IMG/VR virus record: IMGVR_UViG_3300032278_004048
Span: 1-50,592 of that record
Direction: 5' to 3' (one strand)
Length of the DNA stretch: 50,592 nt
DNA from: a virus
The position numbers and the translations under genes are program-made. Position 1 is the first letter of the stretch; every line of letters starts with the position of its first letter. Positions 2,804 through 42,019 of the stretch are shown piece after piece. The notes beneath the pieces are model-generated. The model searched no databases, was not told the origin of the DNA, and was given only the letters and a program-made list of their open reading frames with translations.

Positions 2804-3073
2804 ATGAAAATCACAAAACGACAGTTAAGAAGAATCATCAGAGAAGAACGGGCTAGGCTCTTAAAAGAGGAAACTACCCCAAGCATAGAAACTCACGGTG
2901 CTCCGCGAATGGGTGCCGGCATGAATCCGACGCAAGCTCAAGCTCGTCTTGAAGAGATCCTTACAGAAATCGAAGATAGCTCCGCAGACGATTGGTCTTC
3001 GAAGATGGCGGGTGAAGGACTTGATATGTTGTATACGATGATTGGTAGCCCCGGATTTGGAAAAGGAGCGTGA
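2804..3073 (+). CDS. Motif-array protein 1 (89 aa)
   Basis: First member of the array. The motif covers residues 1-15 and continues to LLKE at about 22. The body has a Pro/Met-rich linker (HGAPRMGAGMNPT) and then one acidic helix (ARLEEILTEIEDSS) and a short hydrophobic end (LDMLYTMIG). No catalytic residues, Cys or membrane segment are present, and I recognise no family. The upstream leader with hairpins may set its expression. The next gene starts two bases after its stop. Confidence 0.8.
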   Translation: MKITKRQLRRIIREERARLLKEETTPSIETHGAPRMGAGMNPTQAQARLEEILTEIEDSSADDWSSKMAGEGLDMLYTMIGSPGFGKGA

Positions 3074-3075
3074 TA

Positions 3076-3396
3076 ATGAAAATCACAAAGAGACAACTAA
3101 GAAGAATCATCAAGGAAGAGAAGCGGAAACTATTATCAGAGAAAAGGTTCACTGACGATCGAGCATTCATGGACGCGATGAAAACTATAATAGATACCTT
3201 GATGCAATTAGACCCAAAGTCTAGAGTTAAAAATGCTGAATCGCTTATTCAGAATATTGAGACTATTATAGATCAAGCTAGTAAAGAAACACAAGGTGGA
3301 GTTCCACCTAAAACTCACCGTACAGCGACCGAAGAAGAGAGCGGAATACCCGATTCTCAAAGATCAGTCATTCACAATAGAAGACCAAATTGGTAG
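3076..3396 (+). CDS. Motif-array protein 2 (106 aa)
   Basis: The ATG at 3076 is chosen because the shared motif begins there; an in-frame GTG lies six bases earlier. After the motif and LLSE come two amphipathic helices, AFMDAMKTIIDTLMQLD and ESLIQNIETIIDQ, which could form a helical hairpin. The last 35 residues are polar and rich in Thr, Arg and Glu, probably unstructured. Function unknown. Confidence 0.8.
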   Translation: MKITKRQLRRIIKEEKRKLLSEKRFTDDRAFMDAMKTIIDTLMQLDPKSRVKNAESLIQNIETIIDQASKETQGGVPPKTHRTATEEESGIPDSQRSVIHNRRPNW

Positions 3397-3403
3397 GAAA
3401 TAA

Positions 3404-3643
3404 ATGAAAATCACAAAACGACAGTTAAGAAGAATTATCAAAGAAGAGAAGGCCAGAATTCTCAAAGAATCTGAAAATCCTGCAAACGAACTGGATGCCA
3501 TTGTCGACGAGCTACGGGCTCAAGGACTTGAAGATCTGGCAGCCCGTCTTGAAGACTGGTTTGAGCCCATGAGATTTGACTGGGAGCCACCTGATCCGTA
3601 CGGAGCCAGGCATACCCGCCGGAATCAGTATAGGACAAAATAA
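3404..3643 (+). CDS. Motif-array protein 3 (79 aa)
   Basis: The motif is followed by ARILKESENP, then an acidic amphipathic helix (LDAIVDELRAQ, LEDLAARLEDW) and a short tail that is aromatic and then basic (RRNQYRTK). It fits the pattern of a cleavable basic leader and a compact helical body. The stop codon overlaps the next start as TAATG. No family recognised. Confidence 0.8.
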   Translation: MKITKRQLRRIIKEEKARILKESENPANELDAIVDELRAQGLEDLAARLEDWFEPMRFDWEPPDPYGARHTRRNQYRTK

Positions 3644-3993
3644 TGAAGATCACAAAAAGACAGTTAAGAAGAATCATCAGAGAAGCAGTTGAGCAAACAG
3701 GACATGCTGCTTTCGTAAAAGATTTTGATGCCGCTTATAAGCAACCAGACGGATCATATAAGGGCCATCCGGATGAAGCTGTTGATCCACCTCGAAGCAA
3801 GGGCGCCAGGGCTCGTATGAATTCCAAAGGTTATCAGGATGGTCTGGATGGGGTAATGCCTGTATCTATGAGTAGCTTGAAAGATCCTGACTACATGGCA
3901 GGAAAAAAAGCTGGATCAAGAGACAGGTCGAATGATCCGTACGCAAATCACAGTTTTACCGAACTCGATCTAGATACATGGGAAGAAAGGTAA
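3643..3993 (+). CDS. Motif-array protein 4 with RMF-like domain (116 aa)
   Basis: The motif is short here (IIREA at residues 11-15). Residues 61-91 resemble ribosome modulation factor: SKGYQDGLDG, a Pro/Ser linker, then DPDYMAGKKAG, matching the paired GYxAGxxG and GGWREA-like halves of that family. RMF binds 30S subunits and promotes inactive 100S ribosome dimers in bacteria. If the likeness holds, this protein could act on host translation. The likeness is read by eye; the family is short and low in complexity, so chance is possible. A second RMF-like member lies at 6746. Confidence 0.75.
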   Translation: MKITKRQLRRIIREAVEQTGHAAFVKDFDAAYKQPDGSYKGHPDEAVDPPRSKGARARMNSKGYQDGLDGVMPVSMSSLKDPDYMAGKKAGSRDRSNDPYANHSFTELDLDTWEER

Positions 3994-3996
3994 ACA

Positions 3997-4344
3997 ATGA
4001 GAATCACAAAACGGCAACTAAGAAGAATCATTAAAGAAGAGAAGCAGAGACTGTTAAATGAACAAGATGCCGACGCTTTTAATGCAGCTTTAGAAGAGCT
4101 TAAATTCGTAGTTGAAGAAATTGACGCCTACGCCGGCGCAGCAAGTCGCCACCACCTACGTGATGACCAGTCCGGTGAAGGTAGGGAAGCTTCTAGGGTC
4201 GAGCAAGAAGTTTATGAAAGCGTTCACGATTCTTTGCTCCCGGTGCTAAAAATGTTTGAGAAGTTACGAAGCAAGCAATCAGATATGCCAACGAAAGCAT
4301 CATCCACCTGGGTGCCGCCTTCTCCCACTCATGGCATGGAATAA
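3997..4344 (+). CDS. Motif-array protein 5 (115 aa)
   Basis: The motif starts MRITKRQL and runs to LLNE at residue 22. The body is mostly helical: AFNAALEELKFVVEEID, then a polar loop with two His (RHHLRDD), then a second helix around VYESVHDSLLPVLKMFEKL. The C-terminal 20 residues are Ser/Thr/Pro-rich. No known family is recognised. Confidence 0.8.
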   Translation: MRITKRQLRRIIKEEKQRLLNEQDADAFNAALEELKFVVEEIDAYAGAASRHHLRDDQSGEGREASRVEQEVYESVHDSLLPVLKMFEKLRSKQSDMPTKASSTWVPPSPTHGME

Positions 4345-4359
4345 AGGAGAACCAAGATA

Positions 4360-4653
4360 ATGAAGATCACCAAACGACAACTTAGAAGAATCATTCGAGA
4401 AGAGCGTAAGAGATTAATCGAGCAAGGGATGACACCAGGCGCTAGAGCGTTGGGCGCTTTTGCTCCTACAGATCAGGTTGATAGAATCAAGACCGGTTTG
4501 AGCAGACTGCACGGTGGCATGGTCAATGATATCATTGCAGAAGAAGGTGTTATGACGGGAGAAGCCGAAGACATGGCCGCTGAAGGTATTGTTGAGCTAG
4601 TCAGAGAATTTTTGGATTCAATAGGCTACAGACATATGATTGACGAATATTGA
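4360..4653 (+). CDS. Motif-array protein 6 (97 aa)
   Basis: It is preceded by aAAGGAGaaccaagata, the clearest ribosome binding site in this part of the array. The motif is followed by KRLIEQ. The body is Gly/Ala-rich with a helix around DRIKTGLSRLHGG and a C-terminal helix GIVELVREFLDSIGYR. It has no Cys, signal peptide or membrane segment. Function unknown. Confidence 0.8.
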   Translation: MKITKRQLRRIIREERKRLIEQGMTPGARALGAFAPTDQVDRIKTGLSRLHGGMVNDIIAEEGVMTGEAEDMAAEGIVELVREFLDSIGYRHMIDEY

Positions 4654-4661
4654 GAATTTAA

Positions 4662-4949
4662 ATGAAAATTACAAAACGACAGTTAAGAAGAATCATCAAG
4701 GAAGAGAAAGCACGCCTCTTAAAAGAGCAAGCGCCCAATCCGGATGACGCGATGTATGCAGCCAATACAGCTGGAGGCAGCTTGTTTGATGCTCTTGAAG
4801 ATCTAGGTGCCGATGCACAAACAGCTCGGGAAATTCATAATCTTCTTAAGACCACAACTTGGTTAGATGACGCGCTTGATCAAGCGCTTAACAGCTATTT
4901 GAAAAAACTAAACATGATGGGCGGTACGCCAAAACCCAGGAGCATATAA
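4662..4949 (+). CDS. Motif-array protein 7 (95 aa)
   Basis: Full-length motif ending LLKEQ. The body has two predicted helices, SLFDALEDLGADAQTAREI and LDDALDQALNSYLKKL, joined by a TTTW turn, and a short Gly/Pro tail. It reads like a small helical bundle. The last base of its stop codon is the first base of the next start. No family recognised. Confidence 0.8.
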   Translation: MKITKRQLRRIIKEEKARLLKEQAPNPDDAMYAANTAGGSLFDALEDLGADAQTAREIHNLLKTTTWLDDALDQALNSYLKKLNMMGGTPKPRSI

Positions 4950-6205
4950 TGAAGGTCACAAAGAGACAGCTAAAAAGAATGATCAGAGAAATGCATCCAC
5001 GAGCAGGTGTAGATGATGCTATATTCGAATATGAAGAGTGGGCACGCGAAAGAGGTTCACCTCCAGGCGCTAGCTCAGTTATTGCTAGCTACTTCATTTC
5101 CCTGGGTAATTGGTCGGCGCCTGATATGCGAATGTTGGGTGATCACTACGGCATTTCGTCAGAGGATATCCAAAGGGAAGTTAGTATACAACGAGAAGAA
5201 ATAGCAGCAGACGGTGACTTTAAATACGCATCTATGCCACCAATGCAGGGACCAAGAACTAAGGGAGCCAGTCCACCGCGAGGAATGCCGGACGGTAGAT
5301 TGGGCAGATTAGGAGAGTCTAGAACTAAGGTCACCAAGAGACAACTAAGAAGAATCATTAAAGAAGCTAGTTCTGATGATTGGGCGAATCGTAGAAATCG
5401 TTGGGCTAAATTTAAGCATCACATGGCTCGAGAACCGCAGTTATATTTAGACTGGGTTGAAAAGAGTGGACATGCCTCTCCCGCTTCCTCCTCTGTGATG
5501 GCTACATATTTTTTAGAAATGGGGCTTGAAAACGAACACAAGATTCACAAAAAATTAGCCAGTGAAATTGGTTTAGATCACGAAGACGTAATGCGCGATC
5601 TTAAAATACAGCAATCTGAACGTTCTATTAATATGGGAGAATCTAAAGTGAAGATTACTAAACGCCAGCTAAGAAGAATAGTTAGGGAAGAGACAGTTAA
5701 ATCAACTGAGAAGTATGACGATGACTCTGCTTTAGTCGGAGACCAAGATAAGCTTCATGATAAGTTACAAAAAGCAATTATCGATAAGACGGTTGGTGAC
5801 CGCAAAAAAAGGAAAAACGAATCTATGAAAAGAATTACAAAGAGACGGTTAAGAAAGGTCATTAGAGAAGCTTGTGGCCTCGCTATGGATGTTCCGGAAG
5901 CTTCTTTAGATTTTACACCCGCAATTGAAGAACCATCAGCAGACGTTCCAGTCCCAGGGGATTACGATGCTGTTAGGGATCTATTAGACAATAATTCTGG
6001 GCTTGTTGATCTAGCATTATCTTTTGTCATGATCAAAGCAGGGACTCATTGCGAGAAATCATCCGCACAAGCAATCATTGATCACTTACAAGACAAGGTC
6101 AGTGGTGGAGTAGAAGAAGAACCGCTTGAGTGGGAAACCGATGGCATGCCCGGAAACGAAGTATTTGGAATTAGCTTAGAGGCTAGAAAGAGAAGACTAA
6201 GATGA
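4949..6205 (+). CDS. Motif-array polyprotein with four motif copies (418 aa)
   Basis: One uninterrupted frame with the motif at residue 1 and again starting near residues 127, 235 and 293. The copy at 127 has no start codon of its own, so it must be translated as part of the fusion; the others have GTG (5648) or ATG (5825). Each junction reads x-E-S just before the new motif (LGES, MGES, KNES), compatible with cutting after L/M-x-E. Units 1 and 2 carry related domains: a PPGASSVIASYF / SPASSSVMATYF core followed by a helix and IQRE- or IQQSE-type endings. Unit 3 is short and charged, and unit 4 has a hydrophobic helix LVDLALSFVMIK. Separate cassettes appear to have been joined. Confidence 0.8.
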   Translation: MKVTKRQLKRMIREMHPRAGVDDAIFEYEEWARERGSPPGASSVIASYFISLGNWSAPDMRMLGDHYGISSEDIQREVSIQREEIAADGDFKYASMPPMQGPRTKGASPPRGMPDGRLGRLGESRTKVTKRQLRRIIKEASSDDWANRRNRWAKFKHHMAREPQLYLDWVEKSGHASPASSSVMATYFLEMGLENEHKIHKKLASEIGLDHEDVMRDLKIQQSERSINMGESKVKITKRQLRRIVREETVKSTEKYDDDSALVGDQDKLHDKLQKAIIDKTVGDRKKRKNESMKRITKRRLRKVIREACGLAMDVPEASLDFTPAIEEPSADVPVPGDYDAVRDLLDNNSGLVDLALSFVMIKAGTHCEKSSAQAIIDHLQDKVSGGVEEEPLEWETDGMPGNEVFGISLEARKRRLR

Positions 6206-6510
6206 AAATCACAAAGAGACAACTAAGAAGAATCATCAGAGAAGAGAAGGCTAAAATCTTAAGGATGACAGAAAGTTATGGCGAGCCGCTTTCTCCTCCT
6301 ACCCCCGCTGCGGCCGGTAAATTCGCAGTTAAAATGGATGCTGCGACCGCTGATGCCGTTCAAGAGCTACAGACAGCGTATATTAATTTAGAAGATCTCG
6401 CGAGTGGTATAAGATCTTACCCCCGCGGGTCGGAGACCTCTGATGAAATTCTTATGAATCTGGAATTAGTAAAGAATGCGATTCACTTGCTGGGCGCGGT
6501 GTCACCATGA
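6202..6510 (+). CDS. Motif-array protein 9 (102 aa)
   Basis: It starts in an ATGA overlap with the polyprotein. The motif is followed by KAKILRM, then a Pro/Ala-rich linker. The body (ADAVQELQTAYINLEDLA ... LVKNAIHLLG) shares the order LQ-x-AY-x-NL and AI-x-x-LG with the array member at 8827, suggesting the two bodies are related. This is one of few cases of body similarity within the array. Function unknown. Confidence 0.8.
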   Translation: MKITKRQLRRIIREEKAKILRMTESYGEPLSPPTPAAAGKFAVKMDAATADAVQELQTAYINLEDLASGIRSYPRGSETSDEILMNLELVKNAIHLLGAVSP

Positions 6511-6746
6511 AGATTACAAAGAGACAACTGAGAAGAATTATCAAAGAAGAAAAGCAGAAACTCTTGAATGAGGGTAATCCGCTAAGCTTAGAAAATAAGA
6601 TCATAGGTGATCTTCATGCCGCTCTTCGATTGGCTGAGGCTAGGGCAGGAGACGAACGAGGAACGACAGCTTCAGCTTTGGTTGAAATGCTACGTGAGGT
6701 TCTTCAAGATATTAACAAATATATGGATCAACAAAGGGGATTCTAG
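6507..6746 (+). CDS. Motif-array protein 10 (79 aa)
   Basis: Four-base overlap with the preceding gene. After the motif and LLNEG, the body is an Ala-rich helical pair, IIGDLHAALRLAEARAG and ALVEMLREVLQDINKYM. It may be a distant relative of the 6202 and 8827 bodies, which have the same helix-loop-helix size. It ends at a TAG whose last base overlaps the next GTG start. Confidence 0.8.
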   Translation: MKITKRQLRRIIKEEKQKLLNEGNPLSLENKIIGDLHAALRLAEARAGDERGTTASALVEMLREVLQDINKYMDQQRGF

Positions 6747-7027
6747 TGAAAATTAGAGAAGAAAAATTAAGAAGAGTTATTCGTGAGGCTTTAATCCAAG
6801 AGTTGTTTGGTTTTGGTGGTAGCAAGGAAAAGAAAGACGATTTTGCAAGAAGGGGCGATGGTTTTGTCAAGTGGAGCAAACTATCAGACGAGGAAAAATC
6901 TGAATATAAACTTGGCAAGAAAGCGCACGGGGAAGATGTTCCAAAAGATGACGTAAAGGGTGAATCACCAGCCTATAAAGCCGGTTGGGATGATGCTCAG
7001 AGAAAACTAGCATCTGAGCAGTTTTAG
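6746..7027 (+). CDS. Motif-array protein 11 with RMF-like domain (93 aa)
   Basis: GTG start at 6746. The motif is diverged (MKIREEKLRRVIREA), keeping the Leu/Arg/Ile pattern and I-R-E. Residues 52-86 again resemble ribosome modulation factor: EYKLGKKAHGED, a short linker, then SPAYKAGWDDA, close to the GxxAG...GGWREA plan. It is probably related to the domain in the 3643 gene, though the linker differs. The inferred role is ribosome interaction or hibernation-like silencing of the host; this rests only on short motif likeness. Confidence 0.75.
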   Translation: MKIREEKLRRVIREALIQELFGFGGSKEKKDDFARRGDGFVKWSKLSDEEKSEYKLGKKAHGEDVPKDDVKGESPAYKAGWDDAQRKLASEQF

Positions 7028-7043
7028 TTAAAGGAAGATTATA

Positions 7044-7373
7044 ATGAGAATCACCAGAAGACAGCTTAGAAAAACTATCAGAGAAGCATTACTTAGAGAA
7101 ATGACGATCTCTACCACAGACGCTGAGCAGTATCTCAGGGACAATGCTGAAACGTATCGATCGGATCCGAACATGTCTGGTAGCTCGATGAGAATGTTGC
7201 TGATGGATGATTTCATGGATGATTTGGGTCACCAATTAAACATCGAAGACTTTCAAGATCTAATCGATGAGTTATCACTTGATACGCCGGCGCCAGCAGG
7301 TTTATCTCAAGAGGTAGAAGAATTACCGCTACCCAGGAGATCGTCCTGGCAAGCTAGAAAAGAGAGAAGGTAA
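7044..7373 (+). CDS. Motif-array protein 12 (109 aa)
   Basis: The motif variant is MRITRRQLRKTIREA followed by LLREM. The body is acidic and Met-rich: a helix DAEQYLRDNAETYR, a loop with SGSSMRMLLMDDFMDDLG, a helix IEDFQDLIDELS, and a basic Arg-rich tail. It could be a small acidic domain that binds basic partners. A ribosome binding site AAAGGA precedes the start by about ten bases. No family recognised. Confidence 0.8.
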   Translation: MRITRRQLRKTIREALLREMTISTTDAEQYLRDNAETYRSDPNMSGSSMRMLLMDDFMDDLGHQLNIEDFQDLIDELSLDTPAPAGLSQEVEELPLPRRSSWQARKERR

Positions 7374-7378
7374 ACATA

Positions 7379-7747
7379 ATGAAGATTACAAAAAAGCAAC
7401 TTCAAAGAATAATCAAAGAAGAGAAGCGGAAGCTTTTAAGAGAATATGATGAAGCAGACGCACCGGCACCGACAAATGATGAACATCATTGGCCACGCGT
7501 TGACTGGTCTAACGTCGGTGAGTTAGTTGATAAGTGGACAAAAATGGAAGAAGATGCTTGGGATACAGGCGATCCCTCCATGAATCCGGATGATGTTTCT
7601 AACTCGGAAGCAAAGGGACATTGGGGCGATCAAGTAGAAGGCGCAGCCATGGATATGGAGGCTGAGCTAACTCTTCGAATTCGGAAAGTAGCACTTGCGA
7701 CTATGAAAGAGTTTACTGACAAGCTTATCAACGGGGACTACGCATAA
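7379..7747 (+). CDS. Motif-array protein 13 (122 aa)
   Basis: The motif is MKITKKQLQRIIKEE ending LLREY. The body is acidic and rich in Trp, with HHWPRVDWSN, ELVDKWTKMEEDAWD and GHWGDQVEGAAMDM segments, then a helix TLRIRKVALATMKEF. The regularly spaced Trp residues suggest a folded domain, but I do not know it. The next start lies one base after its stop. Confidence 0.8.
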   Translation: MKITKKQLQRIIKEEKRKLLREYDEADAPAPTNDEHHWPRVDWSNVGELVDKWTKMEEDAWDTGDPSMNPDDVSNSEAKGHWGDQVEGAAMDMEAELTLRIRKVALATMKEFTDKLINGDYA

Positions 7748-7748
7748 A

Positions 7749-8012
7749 GTGAAAGACGAAGATGTAGTTTTGCTTAAACTTGGTCTTCGTTTTGGTCCGG
7801 GAGAGATCGATAAGATCATCGATGATGCAATTGCTAGGAAAGGCAGGCATCTTTTAGAGAATTACCACTTGTTAGTTAAAGATTTGAAAAGGCTAAAAAA
7901 AAAGAGGTTAAACAAGAATGAAGATGACGAAACGCCAGTTGAGAAAAATTATCGTAGAAGCTTTAGCGTTAGACCTCGAAGTTGGCGATGTAATCTTGAC
8001 TGGACGCTTTAA
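7749..8012 (+). CDS. Small gene without the motif; probable frameshift at an A-tract (87 aa as read)
   Basis: GTG start right after the previous stop. The first 50 residues form a normal-looking helical protein (IDKIIDDAIARKGRHLLENY, LLVKDLKRLKKK). From 7904 on, this frame runs 95 bases into the next gene in a different frame, and that part looks unnatural. The sequence CTA AAA AAA AAG holds a canonical A-AAA-AAG slippery heptamer (7898-7904) in the zero frame. A -1 shift there gives five more codons and a TGA at 7919-7921, overlapping the next ATG as ATGA. The true product may therefore be about 57 aa. A sequencing indel in the A9 run is the alternative. Confidence 0.55.
   Translation: MKDEDVVLLKLGLRFGPGEIDKIIDDAIARKGRHLLENYHLLVKDLKRLKKKRLNKNEDDETPVEKNYRRSFSVRPRSWRCNLDWTL
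7898..7904 (+). other. Slippery heptamer A-AAA-AAG
   Basis: It sits in the zero frame of the 7749 gene in the same phase as the E. coli dnaX site. Slipping -1 leads to a stop that creates an ATGA junction with the next gene, matching the overlap style used throughout the array. No obvious downstream stem-loop was seen; a GAAAAGG stretch just upstream could act as a weak Shine-Dalgarno stimulator. Confidence 0.45.
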
Positions 8013-8157
8013 GAATAAGCGGACTGTTGTTAAGAAGATCGGAACTGATGACTTGGGACAACCGACCGTAAACGGAATGAAAGTTCTTAGCTTTAGGATA
8101 GAGAAACTGATGCCGAGATCAAAGTGGAGCAAGAAGTCTTTAGAGGAAGAAGAATGA
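7918..8157 (+). CDS. Motif-array protein 14 with SH3/KOW-like domain (79 aa)
   Basis: The motif variant is MKMTKRQLRKIIVEA. The body begins LEVGDVILTGRFKNKR, then VVKKIGTDDLGQPTVNG and VLSFRIEKLMP, a clear small beta-barrel pattern like the mini-barrels at 560-2464. It shows that the same motif has been joined to a barrel domain that also occurs without it. The role may be nucleic-acid or protein binding. It ends in an acidic tail whose TGA overlaps the next ATG. Confidence 0.8.
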   Translation: MKMTKRQLRKIIVEALALDLEVGDVILTGRFKNKRTVVKKIGTDDLGQPTVNGMKVLSFRIEKLMPRSKWSKKSLEEEE

Positions 8158-8504
8158 AGATCACGAAGAGACAGTTAAGAAGAATCATTCGCGAAGAGTT
8201 GCAATTAGAAATGACTAGTTATGAGAAAGAAGTAGGAGAACCCTCTGAATTCATAGAAGCTAACTGGATACTTTGGGCGAAAGAAAATGACATCGACCCT
8301 GCGCGGGGTGCGATTTTTGACGATTTAGCTAGATATCTAGGTGCTCAAGATCGATCATGGTTAGATGCTAAACCTCCAGCTGCTGGACCGATAGCTACGG
8401 AAATAGAAGAATTTGTGCGAATGACTGCTGGTCACGCTAAAATGCGTGCAAAGATGAGCCCAGAGGCAAATAAATGGAGATATCCAGAGAGAAAGTGGGA
8501 TTAA
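8154..8504 (+). CDS. Motif-array protein 15 (116 aa)
   Basis: The start at 8154 is set by the motif and the ATGA overlap; an in-frame ATG lies 30 bases earlier. The body (EANWILWAKENDIDPARGAIFDDLARYLG, here split over helices) follows the same plan as units 1 and 2 of the 4949 polyprotein: aromatic-W-helix, P-A/G-x-x-x-I/V-x-x-x-x-Y-F/L, then a second helix. This looks like a third diverged copy of that domain. The C-terminal 30 residues are basic. Function unknown. Confidence 0.8.
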   Translation: MKITKRQLRRIIREELQLEMTSYEKEVGEPSEFIEANWILWAKENDIDPARGAIFDDLARYLGAQDRSWLDAKPPAAGPIATEIEEFVRMTAGHAKMRAKMSPEANKWRYPERKWD

Positions 8505-8505
8505 A

Positions 8506-8823
8506 ATGAAGATTACAAAGAGACAACTAAAAAGAATTATCAAGGAAGAGAAGACCAAGATCCTCCGCGAATCGCTAGCCGATACACAGTTCATGCAGGA
8601 ACAGCTCGAGAAGATCGACAACATCGTCGGTGCTTGGGCCGAGATGATGGATGGGATGTTTGAGGAGGATCCAGAGGCGTTCGCCGGTCGTTCCACCAAA
8701 GAACAGTGGACACAGCAGGTCGATGATGCTCATGATGCGCTCTCGGTGGCCATCAAAGCGGCGGCTGAGACAGCGATGGAGCGCGTCGAGATGGAGCTCC
8801 ACGATGGACAATTTGCGAAGTAA
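8506..8823 (+). CDS. Motif-array protein 16, atypical composition (105 aa)
   Basis: The motif end ILRES joins a body with a clearly different base composition: from about 8560 to 8820 codons are G/C-ending (gcg, gtc, gag, atc), unlike the A/T-ending codons of its neighbours. The product is a Met/Ala/Glu-rich helical protein (IVGAWAEMMDGMFEED, VAIKAAAETAMERVEMEL). This mix suggests a recently acquired body grafted onto the local leader. No family recognised. Confidence 0.8.
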   Translation: MKITKRQLKRIIKEEKTKILRESLADTQFMQEQLEKIDNIVGAWAEMMDGMFEEDPEAFAGRSTKEQWTQQVDDAHDALSVAIKAAAETAMERVEMELHDGQFAK

Positions 8824-8826
8824 ACT

Positions 8827-9051
8827 ATGAAAATCACAAAGAGACAACTAAGAAGAATTATCAAAGAAGAGCGAGCTAGACTTTTAAAAGAAAGTGAAGA
8901 CCCTGTAGATTTGCTACAAATTGCTTATGGAAATCTTGCTGCAGTTTCTCAGAATATGGATACATGGGCAGTTGCCGAAATAAGGTCTGAGGTGAATGAA
9001 TGTATAGAGCTAGTAAGAGATGCTATAATTGGTTTAGGGGGGCGAATCTAA
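8827..9051 (+). CDS. Motif-array protein 17 (74 aa)
   Basis: Short member. The motif ends LLKES, then a single helical body LLQIAYGNLAAVSQNMD ... CIELVRDAIIGLGG. The order LQ-x-AY-x-NL and AI-x-x-LG resembles the 6202 member, so the two are probably paralogues. It has one Cys, no signal peptide and no membrane segment. Confidence 0.8.
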   Translation: MKITKRQLRRIIKEERARLLKESEDPVDLLQIAYGNLAAVSQNMDTWAVAEIRSEVNECIELVRDAIIGLGGRI

Positions 9052-9052
9052 G

Positions 9053-10072
9053 ATGAAGATCACAGAGAGACAACTGAGAAGAATCGTTCGAGAAAAAACG
9101 CGGCGATTACTTGAATCGGAACGCGGTTATGATCCTCCATTTGAAAGACTCTATAATCCCGACATGAGTGATGCAGTAGATAGGGAAGCTAGCATTGAGG
9201 TTGACTGGGCCGGAGATCTTCGTGAGCTCCAATCATTACCACCTGGTTTATCGGGGAAAGTAATCAGTCAAACTGGTGGTGGCGGGGGATGGCCGGTTGT
9301 CTTGATTCAAGGAGATCGCCGAGCTTTGGAGGATTGGTATATCAACATTTATTCCGGTGGAGATCGGCAAGCTGCTGGAGATTTTGGTGAACTTGTAAGG
9401 GAATCGAAATTAGTCAAAGAAGCTTTTGGCCCTCCCGATGCGGGAGGAAATATTATAGGGATGATCAGCGCAGATATTGATGGTGATCCTCGTTATAATC
9501 AGAGACTTACCGTGACGCATGATCCTAGTACCGATGAGGTGACTATCCTTGTACAAGATGCCGGTGCTGTTGGTGGTATGGATTATCAGGGTCCTGGTGA
9601 GGGTCGGGGTAAATACCACACGATCGGTAAGCAGGTTCTTCCAGCCGGAACAAATGGGAAAGGTCTAGTTGCAGCAATTAAGCATATGATTAAAAGAAGA
9701 GCTGATACGATAAAACAGTATGGCCGACCAACGAAGAATTTTGTCTGGGGAGAGAGTATGTATTCCTCGGGTCCAAAAGGTATGAGCGCGGGATTGGCTG
9801 CAGCTGCGCTGCAACAGTCTCGTGGGGTAGTAGAAAATATAAAGATTACAAAGAGACAGCTTAGAAGAATTATTCGCGAAGAGGTATCTCGCTTAAATGA
9901 GACCCGACCCAGGCACGGAATCGATCCAAGAGAATTCGGTCGTAAAGTAATACACCTCCGTGATGGACGATCTGGTGTAGTTGTTGCCGTGACAAGAGAT
10001 ATAATTTTGCTTCAGAGCGGAGAGCAGATTATTCCCGGTCAAGTTGACTGGCCCAAGACTAACAGGATATAA
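9053..10072 (+). CDS. Motif-array polyprotein with two motif copies (339 aa)
   Basis: The motif at residue 1 is MKITERQLRRIVREK, ending LLES. A second copy begins at K264 (KITKRQLRRIIREE, ending RLNET), directly after V-V-E-N and without its own start codon. Unit 1 is large: residues 30-110 hold a Gly-rich turn and GDRRALEDWY, and residues 125-250 read as a beta-rich domain (IIGMISADIDGD, VTILVQDAGAVGG) with a helix KGLVAAIKHMIKRR. Unit 2 (about 76 aa) has REFGRKVIHLRDGRSGVVVAV and DIILLQSGEQIIPG, again a small KOW-like barrel. Processing into two proteins is inferred. Confidence 0.8.
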   Translation: MKITERQLRRIVREKTRRLLESERGYDPPFERLYNPDMSDAVDREASIEVDWAGDLRELQSLPPGLSGKVISQTGGGGGWPVVLIQGDRRALEDWYINIYSGGDRQAAGDFGELVRESKLVKEAFGPPDAGGNIIGMISADIDGDPRYNQRLTVTHDPSTDEVTILVQDAGAVGGMDYQGPGEGRGKYHTIGKQVLPAGTNGKGLVAAIKHMIKRRADTIKQYGRPTKNFVWGESMYSSGPKGMSAGLAAAALQQSRGVVENIKITKRQLRRIIREEVSRLNETRPRHGIDPREFGRKVIHLRDGRSGVVVAVTRDIILLQSGEQIIPGQVDWPKTNRI

Positions 10073-10073
10073 A

Positions 10074-10349
10074 ATGAAGATCACAAAGAAGCAGTTAAGA
10101 AGAATCATAAAAGAAGAGAAGCGACGCATACTCCGAGAACAAACTATCGAACAGGATGCAGCTGACTACTATGCAAAGCATCCATACGGAGAACCCCGAC
10201 CTGGCGAACGGTCGACTGCTGACTTCAATGATCTGGTAGAGGACTTGAGAAACGTTTTGGGCGAAGCGCTGAGCAAAGGCTTAGGTATGGGAGATGCCGA
10301 GGATGCTTGGAATGAAGCTATAGAATATGTAAAGATAATAAATCAATGA
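10074..10349 (+). CDS. Motif-array protein 19 (91 aa)
   Basis: The start is set by the motif (MKITKKQLRRIIKEE, ending ILREQ) one base after the preceding stop; an in-frame ATG upstream lies inside that gene. The body has a short acidic segment AADYYAKHPYGEPRPGE and a helix DFNDLVEDLRNVLGEALSKGL, ending in an aromatic helix (WNEAIEYVKIINQ). No family recognised. Confidence 0.8.
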   Translation: MKITKKQLRRIIKEEKRRILREQTIEQDAADYYAKHPYGEPRPGERSTADFNDLVEDLRNVLGEALSKGLGMGDAEDAWNEAIEYVKIINQ

Positions 10350-10699
10350 AACTTACAGAAACGCAGCTTAGAAAGATCGTTAGGAAAGAGCTTTTAAGAG
10401 AGATGAGAATAAAACAACCCATCCCGTTAGAGGAATTACAGTTCACTCCTTCCGAACAACGAGGGGACATGGCTTTACCCGGAGTCGGTGCTTATAAGGT
10501 CGTTCGTACGCTAGAAGAATTTGAAAATTGGAAAGCAGACTTCTTGAATCGCTATGGCCCAACGATGATTAGCCGTGATCATAACGGGTGGAATGTACAG
10601 AATGAAAAATTCAAAGCTGAGCAAGATGATGAGAATAAACGGTTTATGACACACCACCGTGGGATGGAAAAAAGACTCGGAAGGAAGTTGAGTTATTAA
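10346..10699 (+). CDS. Motif-array protein 20, diverged motif (117 aa)
   Basis: ATGA overlap with the previous gene. The motif is the most changed intact copy (MKLTETQLRKIVRKELLRE): it loses I-x-E at 12-14 but keeps L-R-E at 17-19. The body has PLEELQFTPSEQ, a Gly-rich turn, then EEFENWKADFLNRYGP and a His-containing charged tail (KRFMTHHRGMEKR). It looks like an alpha/beta mini-domain; function unknown. Confidence 0.75.
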   Translation: MKLTETQLRKIVRKELLREMRIKQPIPLEELQFTPSEQRGDMALPGVGAYKVVRTLEEFENWKADFLNRYGPTMISRDHNGWNVQNEKFKAEQDDENKRFMTHHRGMEKRLGRKLSY

Positions 10700-10700
10700 A

Positions 10701-11135
10701 ATGAAAATCACAAAGAGACAGCTAAGAAGAATTATTCGAGAAGAGAGAACCAGATTACTAACGAAAAACTGCCGCAAGCTTTTTGAGAGATCTAGCGGTG
10801 ACATTGCGATGGATGAGCTTCGTAGTGAAGATCTCATAGGCATGATTCGCGACTATTCAAAGGAGTTGACTGGTCGTAGAGATACTTATGGCAGTTTTGA
10901 TAGGCTTGAACGTCTCAGTGTTGAAGAACTTGAAGACCATTACAACGACATGACAAACTCTCCAGAGGCTCAAGATTTGGCGGCTAAATTCCAAGGTGAG
11001 GAAGATGCTGCTCTTGGTCACCAAGAAGATCTAACTTCTATAGAAAGAAGTCCAAGAAGGCAAGGGATGGGTCGCAGGACTGAATCGATTCGCAGGATAA
11101 AAAAAATTATTAGAGAGGTTTTAAGAAATGATTGA
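10701..11135 (+). CDS. Last motif-array protein with a second, C-terminal motif remnant (144 aa)
   Basis: The N-terminal motif is canonical (REERTRLL). The body is charged and helical: SGDIAMDELRSEDLIGMIR, RLERLSVEELEDHYNDM and a Gln/Glu-rich end. The final 18 residues, RRTESIRRIKKIIREVLRND, repeat the Arg-Ile-Ile-R-E core and look like a decayed or reversed-position motif copy, as if a further cassette had been cut off there. The stop overlaps the next gene start by eight bases, which closes the array. Confidence 0.8.
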   Translation: MKITKRQLRRIIREERTRLLTKNCRKLFERSSGDIAMDELRSEDLIGMIRDYSKELTGRRDTYGSFDRLERLSVEELEDHYNDMTNSPEAQDLAAKFQGEEDAALGHQEDLTSIERSPRRQGMGRRTESIRRIKKIIREVLRND

Positions 11136-16295: not shown

Positions 16296-17474
16296 ATGGC
16301 TACTTTTAAAGAAAATAAAAATATATCTGATCGATCTGCTTCTGACAGGCTCAGACATAAAGAAAAGATTGAAAAAGCAATCCGCGAAGGTATACATGAC
16401 ATCGTTGCTGATGAATCTATAATTGGTCAAGACGGGAAAAAACGAGTAAAAATTCCAGTAAAGGGGATCAAAGAGTGGCGGTTTGTCTACGGCGAAAACG
16501 AAAAAAGAAAGAATGTCGGATCGGCGTCGGGAAAAGATATTGCTCGTGGTCAAAAAGTAGGTGAGAAAGATCGAAAGATGCCGGGATCACCCGGAGGCGC
16601 GGGTAACCAAAGAGGCGAAGAGTATTACGAAGTTGAGATAACGCTTGATGAGTTAGCAAAATATTTATTTGAAGATTTAAACCTGCCCAACTTAGAGAAG
16701 AAAAAATTTAAAGAGATATCAATAAAATCTTTTAAACGACACGGGTATCGTAACCAGGGAATTAGACCCAGGCTTGATAAAAAAGAGACAATAAAGAAAA
16801 AAATAAAACGTAAAAAGAAAGCTATCAAAAACAAAACGTATAACCCAGATGATGATGAACGTTTTGGTTTTCACGACGATGATCTGAGATATCGATACAT
16901 CAAAGAAAAAAAGAAACCCACATCAAGCGCTGCGATATTTTTTATTATGGATGTATCTGGATCAATGACAAAAGATAAGAAATTTCTAGCTAGAAGTTTT
17001 TTCTTTCTACTGTATCAGTTTATCAGATCTAAATATGAAAATGTAGAACACGTTTTTATCTCGCATGATGTGGGCGCGCAAGAAGTAAACGAGGATGATT
17101 TCTTCGGTAAAAGCTCTCATGGTGGGACAATAGTTTCCTCAGGTTTAGAAAAATGCATGTCAATCATAGAAACAAGATACCACCCGAACGTTTGGAACAT
17201 ATATACCTTCCAATGTTCTGATGGGGATAACTGGCCAGAAGATAATGAGCGAGTATTAGAATCTGCTAGTCAGTTAATTCACTTAAGCCAATTTTACGGT
17301 TATTGCGAAATAGAACCTAGAAGCGAAAGGAAGGGACAACGGTGGTTACAGCTATCTACGCTATCAGAGCTGTTTAGCACTTTAGTTTCTTCATCTTTTA
17401 AAATAGCTGAAATCAGAAAAAAAGATGATATTTGGCTAGCTTTTCAGAGATTTTTTGGAGTATTTCGTGAGTGA
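16296..17474 (+). CDS. yeaH: YeaH/YhbH-family protein (DUF444, von Willebrand A-like) (392 aa)
   Basis: The N-terminal part has the family hallmarks: a charged SASDRLRHKEKI helix, IKGIKEWRF-like strand, and a Gly-rich GSPGGAGNQRGEEYYEVEI stretch. The C-terminal vWA-like domain has a MIDAS site DVSGSM (219-224), with SHGGT as the likely Thr motif. In bacteria it is encoded beside PrkA (yeaG-yeaH) and works in sustained stress and nitrogen starvation. Here it forms an operon with SpoVR and PrkA; its end overlaps the SpoVR start region. Length fits the family (about 390-430 aa). Confidence 0.88.
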   Translation: MATFKENKNISDRSASDRLRHKEKIEKAIREGIHDIVADESIIGQDGKKRVKIPVKGIKEWRFVYGENEKRKNVGSASGKDIARGQKVGEKDRKMPGSPGGAGNQRGEEYYEVEITLDELAKYLFEDLNLPNLEKKKFKEISIKSFKRHGYRNQGIRPRLDKKETIKKKIKRKKKAIKNKTYNPDDDERFGFHDDDLRYRYIKEKKKPTSSAAIFFIMDVSGSMTKDKKFLARSFFFLLYQFIRSKYENVEHVFISHDVGAQEVNEDDFFGKSSHGGTIVSSGLEKCMSIIETRYHPNVWNIYTFQCSDGDNWPEDNERVLESASQLIHLSQFYGYCEIEPRSERKGQRWLQLSTLSELFSTLVSSSFKIAEIRKKDDIWLAFQRFFGVFRE

Positions 17475-18771
17475 TTGGGCAATAAAAAACCTAGAAGAGT
17501 GGGATGAAAAAATTATTGAGTTGGCAAAGTCTCACAATCTAGATTGGTTTCCAATCTCATATGAGATATGTGATTACTACGCGATGATCGGTAATATGGC
17601 ATATCACGGCATGCCTCTTCACTACCGGCACTGGAGTTACGGCAAGTCTTTCGAGAGAACTCATCAGATGTATAATTTAGGTGCTGAGGGTTTGCCCTAT
17701 GAATTGATCATAAATAGCGATCCATCAATTGCATATCTTATGCGAGAAAATCCTTTTCATTTGCAGCTTTTAATCATGTGTCACTGTGTCGGCCACTCAG
17801 ATTTTTTCAAAAACAATTTAACTTTTTCTGATACTGGGCCAGAGACAATCATACAAAGATTTAAAAATGCCAAAAAAAGAATTGATAGCTACATAGAAGA
17901 TCCAAGCATTGGTATTGGAAAAGTTGAAAGAATTTTAGACGCTGCTCATGCTCTATCAATGCACGTTCCACCAAGCTGTAAAACTTATATTCCTCACAGA
18001 GAAAGAAGAAAAGAGTTAATCAGCAAAATAAAATCCGGTGATGAAGAATACCTCGATAGAGATCCAGATTTTTACCCGATAGTTTTAGAACCTGATTTGC
18101 TAGCTTTTATATCAGAAATGTCTATCAACATAGAAGATTGGGAGAGAGATATCGTTGAAATTGTTCGGTTGGAATCGATGTATTTCATGCCTCAGATTAG
18201 AACAAAAATCATGAATGAAGGATGGGCTTGTTTTTGGCACTATCGATTGATGCATGAGTTAGATCTACCACAGAAATATCACATCCCATTTATCAAAAGT
18301 CACAATCAAGTTGTTCGTCCGCACTTGGGAAGAATCAATCCCTATCACTTAGGATTTTACCTATTTAACAAAATAGAAGAGCGTTATGGTTTGGAAGAAT
18401 GTTTCATAGCTAGAGAAGTTTGCCATGATGAATCTTTTATTAGGCAATATTTAACTCAGGAAGATTGTTATGAATTAAATTTATTTTCTTACTCTCTTTA
18501 TAAAAAAGACTATATCATCAATGAAGTGTCAGATGATGATGGATGGAAAGCGATTAAAAATTCTTTAATTCAACAGATTGGTTCAAACTCTATTCCAAAA
18601 ATAGCTATTAGCGAAATGAAAAGCAATAACGTTTTAAAAGTGAAGCACGAACACGACGGAAGAGATTTAGAATTAAGTTACGCAGAGAAGGTTGTTGATT
18701 ATATTAGTACTCTGTGGGGTGGGGTGGTACGACTAGACACCGTTATAGAAGATGAGCCTTTCGAAATTTAA
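17467..18771 (+). CDS. spoVR: SpoVR-family protein (434 aa)
   Basis: The GTG at 17467 is chosen because GGAG lies six bases upstream; a TTG at 17455 is the alternative. The protein matches the SpoVR/YcgB family: DWFPISYEICDYYAMIG near the start, MPLHYRHWSYGK, YELIINSDPSIAYLM, the CHCVGHSDFF segment and NEGWACFWHYRLMHEL further on. The His-rich positions may bind metal. In Bacillus it affects the spore cortex; in other bacteria it groups with PrkA and YeaH in a stress module whose biochemistry is still unclear. It starts within the YeaH gene end, and PrkA follows after 14 bases. Confidence 0.9.
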   Translation: MSDWAIKNLEEWDEKIIELAKSHNLDWFPISYEICDYYAMIGNMAYHGMPLHYRHWSYGKSFERTHQMYNLGAEGLPYELIINSDPSIAYLMRENPFHLQLLIMCHCVGHSDFFKNNLTFSDTGPETIIQRFKNAKKRIDSYIEDPSIGIGKVERILDAAHALSMHVPPSCKTYIPHRERRKELISKIKSGDEEYLDRDPDFYPIVLEPDLLAFISEMSINIEDWERDIVEIVRLESMYFMPQIRTKIMNEGWACFWHYRLMHELDLPQKYHIPFIKSHNQVVRPHLGRINPYHLGFYLFNKIEERYGLEECFIAREVCHDESFIRQYLTQEDCYELNLFSYSLYKKDYIINEVSDDDGWKAIKNSLIQQIGSNSIPKIAISEMKSNNVLKVKHEHDGRDLELSYAEKVVDYISTLWGGVVRLDTVIEDEPFEI

Positions 18772-18785
18772 TACACGGAGATGAT

Positions 18786-20714
18786 GTGAGCAAAAAAAAT
18801 TTTTTAAAGCTAATACAGGAACAGAGAAAGAATTCAAAAAAAGAAAAATTTGAAGGCAATTTTCTTGATTTCCTAGGAAAAGTTAAAGAGCAACCAGAAT
18901 TAGCTGATCCTGCGCATAAAAGATTATACGATACATTAGTCAGCCACGGTGTTAATGCTATGCTAGATAGCAACCCTAGAAAAAACAAGATATTTGACGG
19001 AGAAAATATAAAAATATACGATTATTTTAAGGATGAATTCTTTGGAACTGAGAGAGTTATTTCTAAAATAATGAGATTTTTAAAGTCTGCTGCGTTAAAG
19101 GGCGAAGAATCTAGGCAAGTTTTACTGCTGATGGGACCTGTTGGCGCCGGCAAATCTGCTATTACCGAGCACATTAAAAGCTCTCTTGAGGGAGTTAGTT
19201 ACTTTCATATTGATGGAGATCCCCAGCGCGGTAATCCGTTGCACTTAGTCCCAAGAAGTTTAAGAACAACATTTGAAGAAGAGCTTAACGTTAAAATTGA
19301 TGGGGATGTTTCTCCGCCGGTTAGGTATTCTTTGCTTAATGACTTAAACGGAAAATATGAAGACTTTAAAATAGTTGAAACAACGTTTTCCCAAAGGGGA
19401 AGAAGAGGAATTGCGTCAGTTCCACCCATGGATGCAAACAGCCAAGATGTTTCAGTCTTGATAGGTTCGGAAGATATTTCAAAACTAGACTTGTACTCAG
19501 AAGATGATCCAAGGGTTCTTTCTCTCAACGGTGCATTTAATATTGGGAATAGGGGAATAGTAGAATTCATAGAACTCTTTAAGAATGAAATTGAGTTTCT
19601 TCACACGATTATTACTGCAACTCAGGAAAAAAGAGTACCTGCTCCTGGTAGACATGATATGATCCACTTTGATGGGGTTATCATTGCGCACTGCAACGAG
19701 GCTGAGTGGAATCGATTTCAGAGCGAACATACTAACGAAGCTATCTTAGATAGAGTTGTAAAGATTAACGTACCCTACGTTTTAGAGTTAGACCAAGAAA
19801 TTAAAATATACGAAAAACTTTTATCGAGATCTAATTTTGACAGTCACATTGCTCCTCACACTTTAAGAGTAGCTTCGATGTTTTCTGTTCTTTCTAGGTT
19901 AAAGTCATCGGGTAAGTGTGACACTTTGACAAAGATGAAGATTTATAACGGTGAAGATGTTATTGAAAAGGGTCGAGTTAAAAAGATTGACATAAAGGAT
20001 TTAAGGGAAGAGTCTAATCACGAGGGGATGAGCGGAATTTCTACTAGGTTTATTATGAAGTCAATTGATTGTGCCCTTTCAGATAGCGATAAAGGGTTCA
20101 TCACGCCTATATCGATAATGGATACCATAGCAAAGAACTGTAAAGAGCAAATAGTCGATGATGCTTTCAAACAAGAGTGCTTAACCCTATTACAAGACGT
20201 TGTCAGAAAAGAGTACCTCAGGATACTGGAAAATGAAATTGCTAAAGCTTTCGTAGCTGCTTACGAAGAACAAGCACAGTCTCTTTTCGAAACTTACCTT
20301 GATAATGCTGAAGCGTTTGCCATGAGATCAAAAATTAAAGACCGGATAACCAACGAAGAAATGGTGCCGGATGAAAAATTTATGACCACTATTGAAGAAG
20401 CTATCGGGATAGTCGGTTCAGCTAAAGAAGGGTTTCGAGCAGACGTTACAGCTTACATGTTCGCAAAAGTCCGGCGCGGTGGGACTGTAGATTACAGAAG
20501 TTACGAACCGCTGAAAGAGGCTATTGAAAGTTACCTCATTAACAGCGTTAAAGACATGGCAAGAATTGTTACAAAATCTAAAACTAGGGATGAAAAACAG
20601 AAGAAAAAATACAATAATATGATAAAAACCATGATAGATGATTATTGTTATACAGAGGACTCCGCTGAGGAGATTCTCGTGTATGCTAGCAATAACCTTT
20701 GGAGGGACTCATAA
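18786..20714 (+). CDS. prkA: PrkA-family serine protein kinase / AAA protein (642 aa)
   Basis: GTG start with acACGGAG upstream. The sequence follows PrkA (YeaG) end to end, and 642 aa is the expected length. An AAA-type ATPase part comes first, with Walker A GPVGAGKS (117-124) and a PSVP-like IASVPPMDANSQD loop, followed by HFDGVIIAHCNEAEW and an LDRVVKINVPYVL segment; the C-terminal kinase-like part has the GISTRFIMKSID region. PrkA is a stress-linked kinase, possibly also protease-like, acting with YeaH and SpoVR. Having all three side by side in one phage suggests a whole functional unit was acquired. Confidence 0.92.
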   Translation: MSKKNFLKLIQEQRKNSKKEKFEGNFLDFLGKVKEQPELADPAHKRLYDTLVSHGVNAMLDSNPRKNKIFDGENIKIYDYFKDEFFGTERVISKIMRFLKSAALKGEESRQVLLLMGPVGAGKSAITEHIKSSLEGVSYFHIDGDPQRGNPLHLVPRSLRTTFEEELNVKIDGDVSPPVRYSLLNDLNGKYEDFKIVETTFSQRGRRGIASVPPMDANSQDVSVLIGSEDISKLDLYSEDDPRVLSLNGAFNIGNRGIVEFIELFKNEIEFLHTIITATQEKRVPAPGRHDMIHFDGVIIAHCNEAEWNRFQSEHTNEAILDRVVKINVPYVLELDQEIKIYEKLLSRSNFDSHIAPHTLRVASMFSVLSRLKSSGKCDTLTKMKIYNGEDVIEKGRVKKIDIKDLREESNHEGMSGISTRFIMKSIDCALSDSDKGFITPISIMDTIAKNCKEQIVDDAFKQECLTLLQDVVRKEYLRILENEIAKAFVAAYEEQAQSLFETYLDNAEAFAMRSKIKDRITNEEMVPDEKFMTTIEEAIGIVGSAKEGFRADVTAYMFAKVRRGGTVDYRSYEPLKEAIESYLINSVKDMARIVTKSKTRDEKQKKKYNNMIKTMIDDYCYTEDSAEEILVYASNNLWRDS

Positions 20715-34071: not shown

Positions 34072-35982
34072 ATGTTTGATAATAGCCCATTTGGCCAACC
34101 CACTAAAGTTAACGATCCAGACGTAATAATAGTCGCTGATTTTTTCGCAAAAGATATTCCAGGCGGAGCTGAGTTAACCACTCAAGCTTTAATCGATTCG
34201 ATCCCAAACGGTCTAGCGGTTCAACCCCTGTATTGCCGTGAAGTCACGCTAGAAACGCTTGAAGTTTTTAAAGATAAGTACTGGATCTTTACCAACATAT
34301 CGATGCTCAACATCAACCTCATTCCGACGATCGCTGCAAACTTAGATTACTCAGTTATAGAGTATGATTACAAGTTCTGTCAGTATCGTTCTATAGAGAA
34401 ACATAAGTTTGCTGAAAAAACCGAGTGTAACTGTCACGAAGAAATCCATGGCAAAATTATCTCAGCTTTCTTTCTTGGAGCAAAGAATATCTGGTGGATG
34501 TCAGAAGCTCAGGAGAAACGTTACACAGACCGGTTTCCGTTTCTATCGGGAGTCGAATCTATCGTTTTAAGTTCCGTTTTTGATGAACGATTTTTTGCAA
34601 AAGTTAACCTCTTAAGATTAAATGAAAAAGATTTAGAGCGTTCCGGCTGGTTAGTTTTAGAATCTAGCAGTTGGATCAAGGGTACTGAAGATGCTATTGA
34701 CCATTGCGAAAAGAATAATTTAGAGTATAAGAAGCTATCAGGTCTGACCCATGATCAGGTTCTAGAAGAGTTAGCCCAAGCTGAGGGGCTGGTATATTTG
34801 CCTCGAGGTGGTGATACCTGTCCAAGATTAGTCATCGAAGCAAAGATGTTGGGCTGTGAGCTTGTCATTAACGAGAACGTGCAGCACAAAGAAGAAATCT
34901 GGTTTAACACCGAAGATTCTTTCGATACAGAAGCCTACCTGTACGCAGCAAGGGAACGGTTTTGGAGCGGCATTATCTCAAAAATGAATTGGCAACCGAC
35001 AATTTCCGGTTACACGACAACTTACAACTGTATTGTTGGTGAGTACCCATGGGAAAAATGCATTGAATCGATGCTGGGATTTTGTGATGAAGTGGTTGTC
35101 ATGGATAGTGGTTCAGATGATGGGACTTGGGAAAAGATTCTAGAGCTAGCAGAAAAAGAACCAAGAATTGTAGCTGAGCAGAACGTTATCGATTGGGACC
35201 ATCCTCGATTCGCGTATCACAGTGACGGTATGCAGAAAGCCCGGGCTCGTTCACTCTGTACCAGCGATTTCTGTTGGCAGATGGATAGCGATGAGTTTAT
35301 TCTACCGAAAGATTACAAAAGTATTAAAAGCTTAGTCAAAAGATTTCCATCTCTCGGAGAGTTAGTGGCTCTTCCGATTTTTGAATTTTGGGGTAGCTTA
35401 AGCAAAGTAAGGGTCGATGTTAATCCGTGGAAGTGGCGAATTTCTAGAAACTTACCGCACATCACTCACGGCATCCCTAAAGAGCTGAGACAGTTTGATG
35501 ATGATGGTAACCTTTACACCGCGCCAGGCAGCGATACATGTGATTACATTCACAACGAAACATTTGAGAGAATAAAATTCATAGCTTATTATTCCGAAGA
35601 GATAGAGAATCTTAGAGTCAACGCGTTATTGGGAGATAAGAATTCTCTTGAAACGTATCAGGATTGGGCTAACAAAGTTATCGACAACGTTCCGACAGTT
35701 TACCACACTTCTTGGCTAGACATGAAGAGAAAGATTGTTCTGTACAAGAATTACTGGTCCAAGTTTTGGCAGTCACAGTACAACACGGAACAGGAAGATA
35801 CTCCGGAAAACAACATGTTCTTTGACAAGAGCTGGTCTGACGTAACTGATAAAGAGATCGATCGCTTAGCTAATAAATTGTCTGAAGAGTTGGGCGGTTG
35901 GATATTTCATCAAAAAATTAACTGGGAAGCTAAAACCCCGCACATAACGATCGATCACGATTGCAAGAGGTTTCTTGAGTAA
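34072..35982 (+). CDS. Two-domain glycosyltransferase, GT4-like plus GT2 (636 aa)
   Basis: Residues 20-300 resemble a GT4-type (GT-B fold) domain: VADFFAKDIPGGAELTTQAL near the start, SSWIKGTEDAI, and PRGGDTCPRLVIEAKMLG as the donor-binding end. From about residue 315 a GT2 (GT-A fold) domain follows: TTYNCIVGEYPWEKCIESML, EVVVMDSGSDDGTWE and the metal-binding WQMDSDEF. Two transferases in one chain would add two sugars in turn or act on one polymer. It is the first gene of the sugar cluster, directly after the repeat-bearing promoter region. Donor and acceptor are unknown. Confidence 0.85.
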   Translation: MFDNSPFGQPTKVNDPDVIIVADFFAKDIPGGAELTTQALIDSIPNGLAVQPLYCREVTLETLEVFKDKYWIFTNISMLNINLIPTIAANLDYSVIEYDYKFCQYRSIEKHKFAEKTECNCHEEIHGKIISAFFLGAKNIWWMSEAQEKRYTDRFPFLSGVESIVLSSVFDERFFAKVNLLRLNEKDLERSGWLVLESSSWIKGTEDAIDHCEKNNLEYKKLSGLTHDQVLEELAQAEGLVYLPRGGDTCPRLVIEAKMLGCELVINENVQHKEEIWFNTEDSFDTEAYLYAARERFWSGIISKMNWQPTISGYTTTYNCIVGEYPWEKCIESMLGFCDEVVVMDSGSDDGTWEKILELAEKEPRIVAEQNVIDWDHPRFAYHSDGMQKARARSLCTSDFCWQMDSDEFILPKDYKSIKSLVKRFPSLGELVALPIFEFWGSLSKVRVDVNPWKWRISRNLPHITHGIPKELRQFDDDGNLYTAPGSDTCDYIHNETFERIKFIAYYSEEIENLRVNALLGDKNSLETYQDWANKVIDNVPTVYHTSWLDMKRKIVLYKNYWSKFWQSQYNTEQEDTPENNMFFDKSWSDVTDKEIDRLANKLSEELGGWIFHQKINWEAKTPHITIDHDCKRFLE

Positions 35983-35984
35983 AG

Positions 35985-39167: not shown

Positions 39168-39169
39168 CC

Positions 39170-41085: not shown

Positions 41086-41100
41086 TATTATAATTAATTA

Positions 41101-41979: not shown

Positions 41980-42019
41980 CTCTACAAATTAAATTCTTAA
42001 TATTTTTCAGGTGGTAAGA

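Follow-up and report, generated by a model that had tools for sequence, protein, structure and literature searches.

The 50,592-base IMG/VR fragment IMGVR_UViG_3300032278_004048 (the window), from a marine virus of bacteria, carries, between positions 2804 and 11135, an array of 21 small genes that begin with nearly the same short basic leader and continue into bodies that differ from gene to gene. Judged from sequence, this leader very probably functions like the capsid-targeting leaders of phage T4, so that each phage would send some 20–35 different proteins into the prohead for packaging and trimming. Related phages have the same kind of tag on a gene next to the gp21-type protease, and the most likely role of the tag is therefore to bring a large and rapidly changing group of proteins into the head. 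Delivery of the bodies into the host, with a role in anti-defense or host takeover, is also favored, although with appreciably less assurance. An earlier note on this DNA had read the genes as a packaged, trimmed, and delivered set; the comparisons support that reading, with packaging, cleavage, and delivery themselves standing as predictions.

The Leader Array of the Window

Reading the motif copies directly from the DNA bore out the claim of 21 genes with a common leader, all of them on the + strand and mostly separated by −4 to +16 nucleotides (overlaps or a few bases). The consensus of the leader is MKITKRQLRRII(R/K)E, with minor variants. An I-x-E sequence occupies residues 12–14 in 19 of the 21 genes, and the two exceptions are exactly those described before: gene 18 (start at 9053) has V-R-E in this position and gene 20 (start at 10346) has V-R-K there with L-R-E later. 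Most copies had also been said to carry L-x-E at residues 20–22; this exact placement is found in about half (10/21), and the number of genes with a second (L/I)-x-E rises to 14/21 when the nearby registers 17–19 and 19–21 are counted. The genes are nearly consecutive, as stated earlier, except that a 170-nucleotide stretch after 7747 may contain one motif-less open reading frame (ORF; 7749–8012) and that the leaders of genes 11 and 20 are degenerate copies. The count of 21 genes stands but had overlooked four further leader copies inside two long ORFs.

The array opens with gene 1 (2804–3073, leader MKITKRQLRRIIREERARLLKE), followed by gene 2 (3076–3396, ...IIKEEKRKLLSE), gene 3 (3404–3643, ...IIKEEKARILKE), gene 4 (3643–3993, with IRE at 12–14 only), gene 5 (3997–4344, ...IIKEEKQRLLNE), gene 6 (4360–4653, with LIE at 19–21), and gene 7 (4662–4949, ...IIKEEKARLLKE). 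Gene 8 (4949–6205) is a fused ORF of 418 amino acids with four leader copies, one at the N terminus and the others at 5327, 5648, and 5825. Genes 9 (6202–6510) and 15 (8154–8504) were likewise read from the DNA. Gene 10 (6507–6746) has the leader ...IIKEEKQKLLNE, gene 11 (6746–7027) has a GTG start and the degenerate leader VKIREEKLRRVIREALIQE, and genes 12 (7044–7373) and 14 (7918–8157) have the leaders MRITRRQLRKTIREALLRE and MKMTKRQLRKIIVEA, respectively. The bodies of gene 13 (7379–7747) and gene 16 (8506–8823) are distant paralogues, so the earlier statement that the bodies are unrelated holds largely but not throughout. Gene 17 (8827–9051, ...IIKEERARLLKE) precedes gene 18 (9053–10072), a fused ORF of 339 amino acids that has a second leader copy at 9839 in addition to its N-terminal VRE variant. 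The last three are gene 19 (10074–10349, ...IIKEEKRRILRE), gene 20 (10346–10699, degenerate leader MKLTETQLRKIVRKELLRE), and gene 21 (10701–11135). A motif-like basic helix is also seen at the C terminus of gene 21 (RRIKKIIREVLRND) and at those of L060:1671–2093 and L015:4972–5514; by analogy, such a helix is perhaps a cut site like that published for T4 Alt.

The Leader in Related Phages

The earlier note had suggested a profile search for the motif across phage genomes. A profile built from 25 copies (the 21 genes and the four internal copies) and applied with a threshold of 18 bits to approximately 28,700 ORFs of the window and its relatives gave 629 matches, and none in the same ORFs reversed, which excludes a chance origin of the motif. 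At least 119 stretches were recovered by a pattern scan of IMG/VR for the leader. A tblastn search with the 23-residue leader against phage records gave no match, its low-complexity filter possibly masking the leader, and the motif string did not occur in the papers searched.

The leader is N-terminal in 592 of the 599 motif ORFs of the loci examined. Each of four large contigs has 22–35 motif genes, and such genes occupy up to about 8% of a genome. Among 534 non-redundant leaders, Ile12 is conserved in 95% and Glu14 in 96%, an (L/I)-x-E site is present at residues 12–14 in 96%, and conservation reaches background from residue 23 onward. In the same set, (L/I)-x-E occurs at residues 16–30 in 59% of the leaders as compared with 23% of shuffled sequences, a 2.5-fold excess, whereas (L/I)-x-K, (L/I)-x-D, and (L/I)-x-Q are no commoner in this interval than in shuffles. 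The corresponding values for (L/I)-x-E in other genes of these phages are 18% and 14%.

Two further leader classes were observed. One, MK(K/Q/L)(L/I)(F/M/L)ENWRK(H/F/Y)(L/I)(N/T/V)E, occurs in approximately 20 cases on unrelated bodies and ends in (L/I)-x-E; this ENWRK type is found at N termini in L016, L018, L038, L054, L078, L094, L096, L099, and L127, and one is fused to a P-loop domain (L042). The other, M(A/P)xRKN(K/T)K(F/R)IDPR(Y/W)F(M/L)(D/N)EKT, begins 16 ORFs with unrelated bodies in L016, L038, L039, L054, L077, L094, L109, and L116. The same motif arrays are also present on contigs binned as bacterial (L278–L284), including a 305-kb Methylococcaceae TMED69 and a 101-kb Halobacteriovorax contig; these are probably misbinned phages.

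Head Operons of the Relatives

The window is collinear with marine phage contigs of 270–293 kb that have legible T4-type head modules. Peptidase_S77 (T4 gp21) scored over the curated cut-off in 17 of the 19 large contigs of relatives, three of which are collinear with the window, and also in 15 of 40 contigs of any size taken from motif-bearing loci; a few contigs belong to both sets. The gene order is portal, a conserved gene of 274–310 amino acids, gp21, usually a small β protein, the leader gene, a small basic gene, further genes, a very acidic scaffold, and gp23. The succession of gp20-like portal, gp21, acidic scaffold, and gp23, which we take to define a T4-like head lineage, is present in the relatives and not in the window.

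The leader gene just downstream of gp21 has the leader in diverged form and begins MAK(I/M/L)(T/S)xxxLKx(I/L)(V/I)KECLVEILxEG in 14 aligned head operons. Comparison of the array leaders with these head-operon leaders by hhalign gave a probability of 94% and an E value of 1.3e-7 over 24 columns. With a profile made from the 14 head-operon leaders only, the first 20 places among the 72 ORFs in the window all went to array genes; the 20-gene set was defined by the array profile, and the degenerate gene 11 lies outside it. In 19 of 19 copies the last residues of the major capsid propeptide, at 59–63, are (V/I/L)-L-(R/K)-E, and alignment with mature T4 gp23 places the T4 cut close to this point, with query residue 74 aligned to residue 19 of gp23*. 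The scaffolds have net charges of −28 to −69 and contain (L/I)-x-E in excess on average (mean z score 2.8). Motif genes themselves are found close to head genes: one overlaps the start of gp21 in L046 (3986–4885, − strand), one lies 24 nucleotides before gp21 in L096 (6609–7358), five follow gp23 in a row in L201 (14959–16900), and others are located shortly before terminase in L198 and L110. In both L211 (12645–16500) and L212 (12700–16581), the gp23-type major capsid gene is present as a tandem pair of very similar genes.

The leader has a charge of approximately +4 over residues 1–14, and a basic amphipathic helix of this kind is able to bind nucleic acid, membranes, or acidic partners. It might be a docking tag for some other partner (nucleoid, membrane, RNA polymerase, or replication factory) on proteins that act in the infected cell and are not packaged, an explanation with which the orphan character of the bodies and the distance of the main arrays from the head genes are in keeping. 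However, the specific excess of (L/I)-x-E and the sharp end of conservation near residue 22 fit a peptide that is removed better than a permanent tag, the conserved gene adjoining gp21 has the same kind of leader, and sister phages place motif genes within the head operon, all of which make a docking tag of this type improbable. In the T4-like packaging that we propose instead, the helix (residues ~2–14) would bind each protein to the acidic scaffold core as the prohead forms, and a gp21-type prohead protease would then cut after (L/I)-x-E at residue 14 and/or at residues ~17–22. The mostly acidic body freed by the cut would stay in the head and enter the host with the DNA. The array would represent a fast-turning cargo bay in which place and leader are kept and bodies are gained, lost, and occasionally fused.

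The Protein Bodies

The 526 bodies compared fall into 361 clusters, of which 293 are singletons, and their median isoelectric point is 4.8 as compared with 6.1 for other genes. When 146 of the longest motif proteins of the relatives were searched against Pfam, PHROGs, PADLOC, and NCBIfam, nearly all proved to be orphans; the domain matches were to Zeta_toxin (1), Peptidase_M78 (1), AAA_33 (1), and DUF5824 (2). One body is P-loop kinase-like, and one resembles an IrrE-like metallopeptidase with a HELGH sequence. In the AlphaFold model of gene 13 (mean predicted local distance difference test score of 77, made with six sequences only) the leader forms its own helix (residues 5–26) and is connected by a low-confidence disordered linker to a separate helical body. 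A Foldseek search of this model against viral structures gave nothing better than an E value of 0.5.

These features bear on whether the bodies, if packaged, would be cargo. They could instead be mainly structural fillers of the core, like T4 gp67 and gp68 or, in part, IPIII, that are degraded or retained in the head and not injected as effectors. The leader-bearing gene of the head operon is conserved and resembles a component of the core, and T4 core proteins have the same cleavage sites (PMC9026906). On the other hand, the extreme turnover of the bodies is better suited to variable cargo, as are the kinase-like and metalloprotease motifs in a few of them, and we consider a mainly structural role to be possible but the less probable alternative.

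Origin of the Leaders and of the Fused Genes

Synonymous codons in the leaders agree at a level of 0.54 between loci and 0.59 within them, as compared with 0.41 expected from the 5′-end codon usage of other genes, and the leaders therefore probably descend from copied DNA. This agreement would also be expected if the conserved 5′ end were mainly a DNA-level cassette for recombination or expression and the peptide were of little importance. Silent variation is nevertheless plentiful, and since Ile12 and Glu14 remain at their high levels of conservation across lineages despite it, selection acts on the peptide. A cassette with an unimportant peptide is thus very improbable, although descent from a DNA cassette and selection on the peptide are compatible.

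The internal leader copies look like the result of in-frame fusion of neighboring genes, because they follow the translated remnant of a ribosome-binding site. The E-S or E-G sequences before these copies were considered as protease sites and were rejected, the DNA there being the remnant of a GGAGA-type ribosome-binding site. In a fused protein of L048, a degenerate leader joins two bodies that are found apart in the window and in L256.

Genomic Context

Positions 14–50 kb of the window are collinear with 62–118 kb of G003, 171–119 kb of G005 (reverse), and 28–77 kb of G009. The T4-type baseplate wedge genes at 49665–50592 (+ strand), the second of which is cut by the end of the window, provide a collinear anchor to the relatives. 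A syntenic motif array is located just upstream in G003 (47.6–56.6 kb) and G005 (184–189 kb), and few of its bodies correspond to those of the window. In the collinear relatives the gp21-type protease lies ~36–54 kb past the point where the window ends. The last gene of the window and the capsid protein of the relative G007 share isolate relatives, namely Microcystis phage Mel-JY01, Flavobacterium phage immuto, and the huge phage LR756508. A scan for σ70 promoters performed no better than shuffles.

Several observations weigh against packaging and trimming. The 50.6-kb window ends before the head module and contains no head genes, a gp21-type protease included, so the link to the protease rests on the relatives, whose PhoH proteins are 46–61% identical. 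The main syntenic array is ~100–120 kb from gp21 in G003 and G005, and array genes are thus not all near the head genes. The T4 late promoter TATAAATA is not enriched upstream of the array or of other genes. The first site usually has Glu next to it, at residue 15, whereas Ala or Ser mostly comes after the capsid site. The internal copies in the fused ORFs are ill-suited to a purely N-terminal tag. Finally, helix composition accounts for some of the (L/I)-x-E excess, but only for part of it, because helix-like N termini without the motif have (L/I)-x-E in 53% of cases (35% when shuffled) and helix-like leaders have it in 89% (40% when shuffled).

Two other regions of the window were noted. Three adjacent genes at 16296–20714 resemble YeaH, SpoVR, and the serine kinase PrkA/YeaG and have 54–72% identity to their counterparts in G003, G005, and G009; among deposited phages, Thermus phages and huge phages are the main carriers of the PrkA/YeaG-like kinase. 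Genes at 34072–44430, between tail-fiber-like and baseplate genes, appear from a reading of their translations to be glycosyltransferase-like and sugar-nucleotide enzyme-like.

Comparison with Known Systems

The internal proteins of T4 have leaders of 10–19 residues that direct them to the scaffold core and that gp21 removes by cutting after (L/I)-x-E (PMC9026906); Ip1–3 have no homology outside the leader, and once injected they block different GmrSD enzymes (PMC12373910). The array, with its common leader, its (L/I)-x-E site, and its unrelated bodies, fits this published pattern in every feature that could be tested. As in IPI, IPII, and IPIII (and Alt), a short N-terminal leader that ends in (L/I)-x-E is attached to unrelated small proteins, the relatives have a T4-type gp21, scaffold, and gp23, and the sets of cargo genes are variable. 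The array bodies are mostly acidic, whereas the T4 internal proteins are basic (PMC9026906). The array phages also differ in having 20–35 such genes in place of three or four, in the fusion of leaders within one ORF, and in a somewhat longer leader of ~14–22 residues with the basic helix MKITKRQLRRIIREE. The T4 leader, which is MKTYQEFIxE-like, looks different from that of the array, so the same mode of action is proposed and not membership in the same leader family.

Large phages such as phiKZ and SPN3US also pack many proteins with their DNA and trim them by a gp21-related protease (PMC5694885, PMC10052503, PMC9026906). Unlike theirs, the head proteins of the relatives of the array phages are T4-type. 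The packaged proteins of phiKZ and SPN3US are larger and are not known to have one short leader common to an array of genes. DarA, DarB, and Hdf of phage P1 are reported to be packaged together with the DNA, which they protect after its entry into a new host (PMC12810830). In contrast to the array, these defense-against-restriction proteins are few and large and do not form an array with a common short leader. They are not known to have a gp21-type (L/I)-x-E leader.

The chances seem to us about even for a broader proposal. With 20–35 leader-tagged proteins per genome, many of them in a syntenic array, the leader would serve as an interchangeable 5′ cassette that makes new bodies into packaged effectors and enables fused ORFs to be separated by cleavage in the prohead. 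No other bacteriophage might then deliver so large a repertoire of effectors from its virion, and sister lineages have at least two more leader classes (MKxLFENWRKxLNE and RKNKxIDPRYFMDE). Recent work showed that the internal proteins of T4 specifically inhibit different restriction enzymes (PMC12373910), and proteins of this type are hard to find because they are conserved in the leader only. As a sequence tag, the leader described here marks hundreds of orphan genes of uncultured marine phages as probable packaged cargo. A defined set of candidates for host takeover or anti-defense would emerge in this way from "hypothetical proteins," and the leader may also provide a new means of loading proteins into phage heads.

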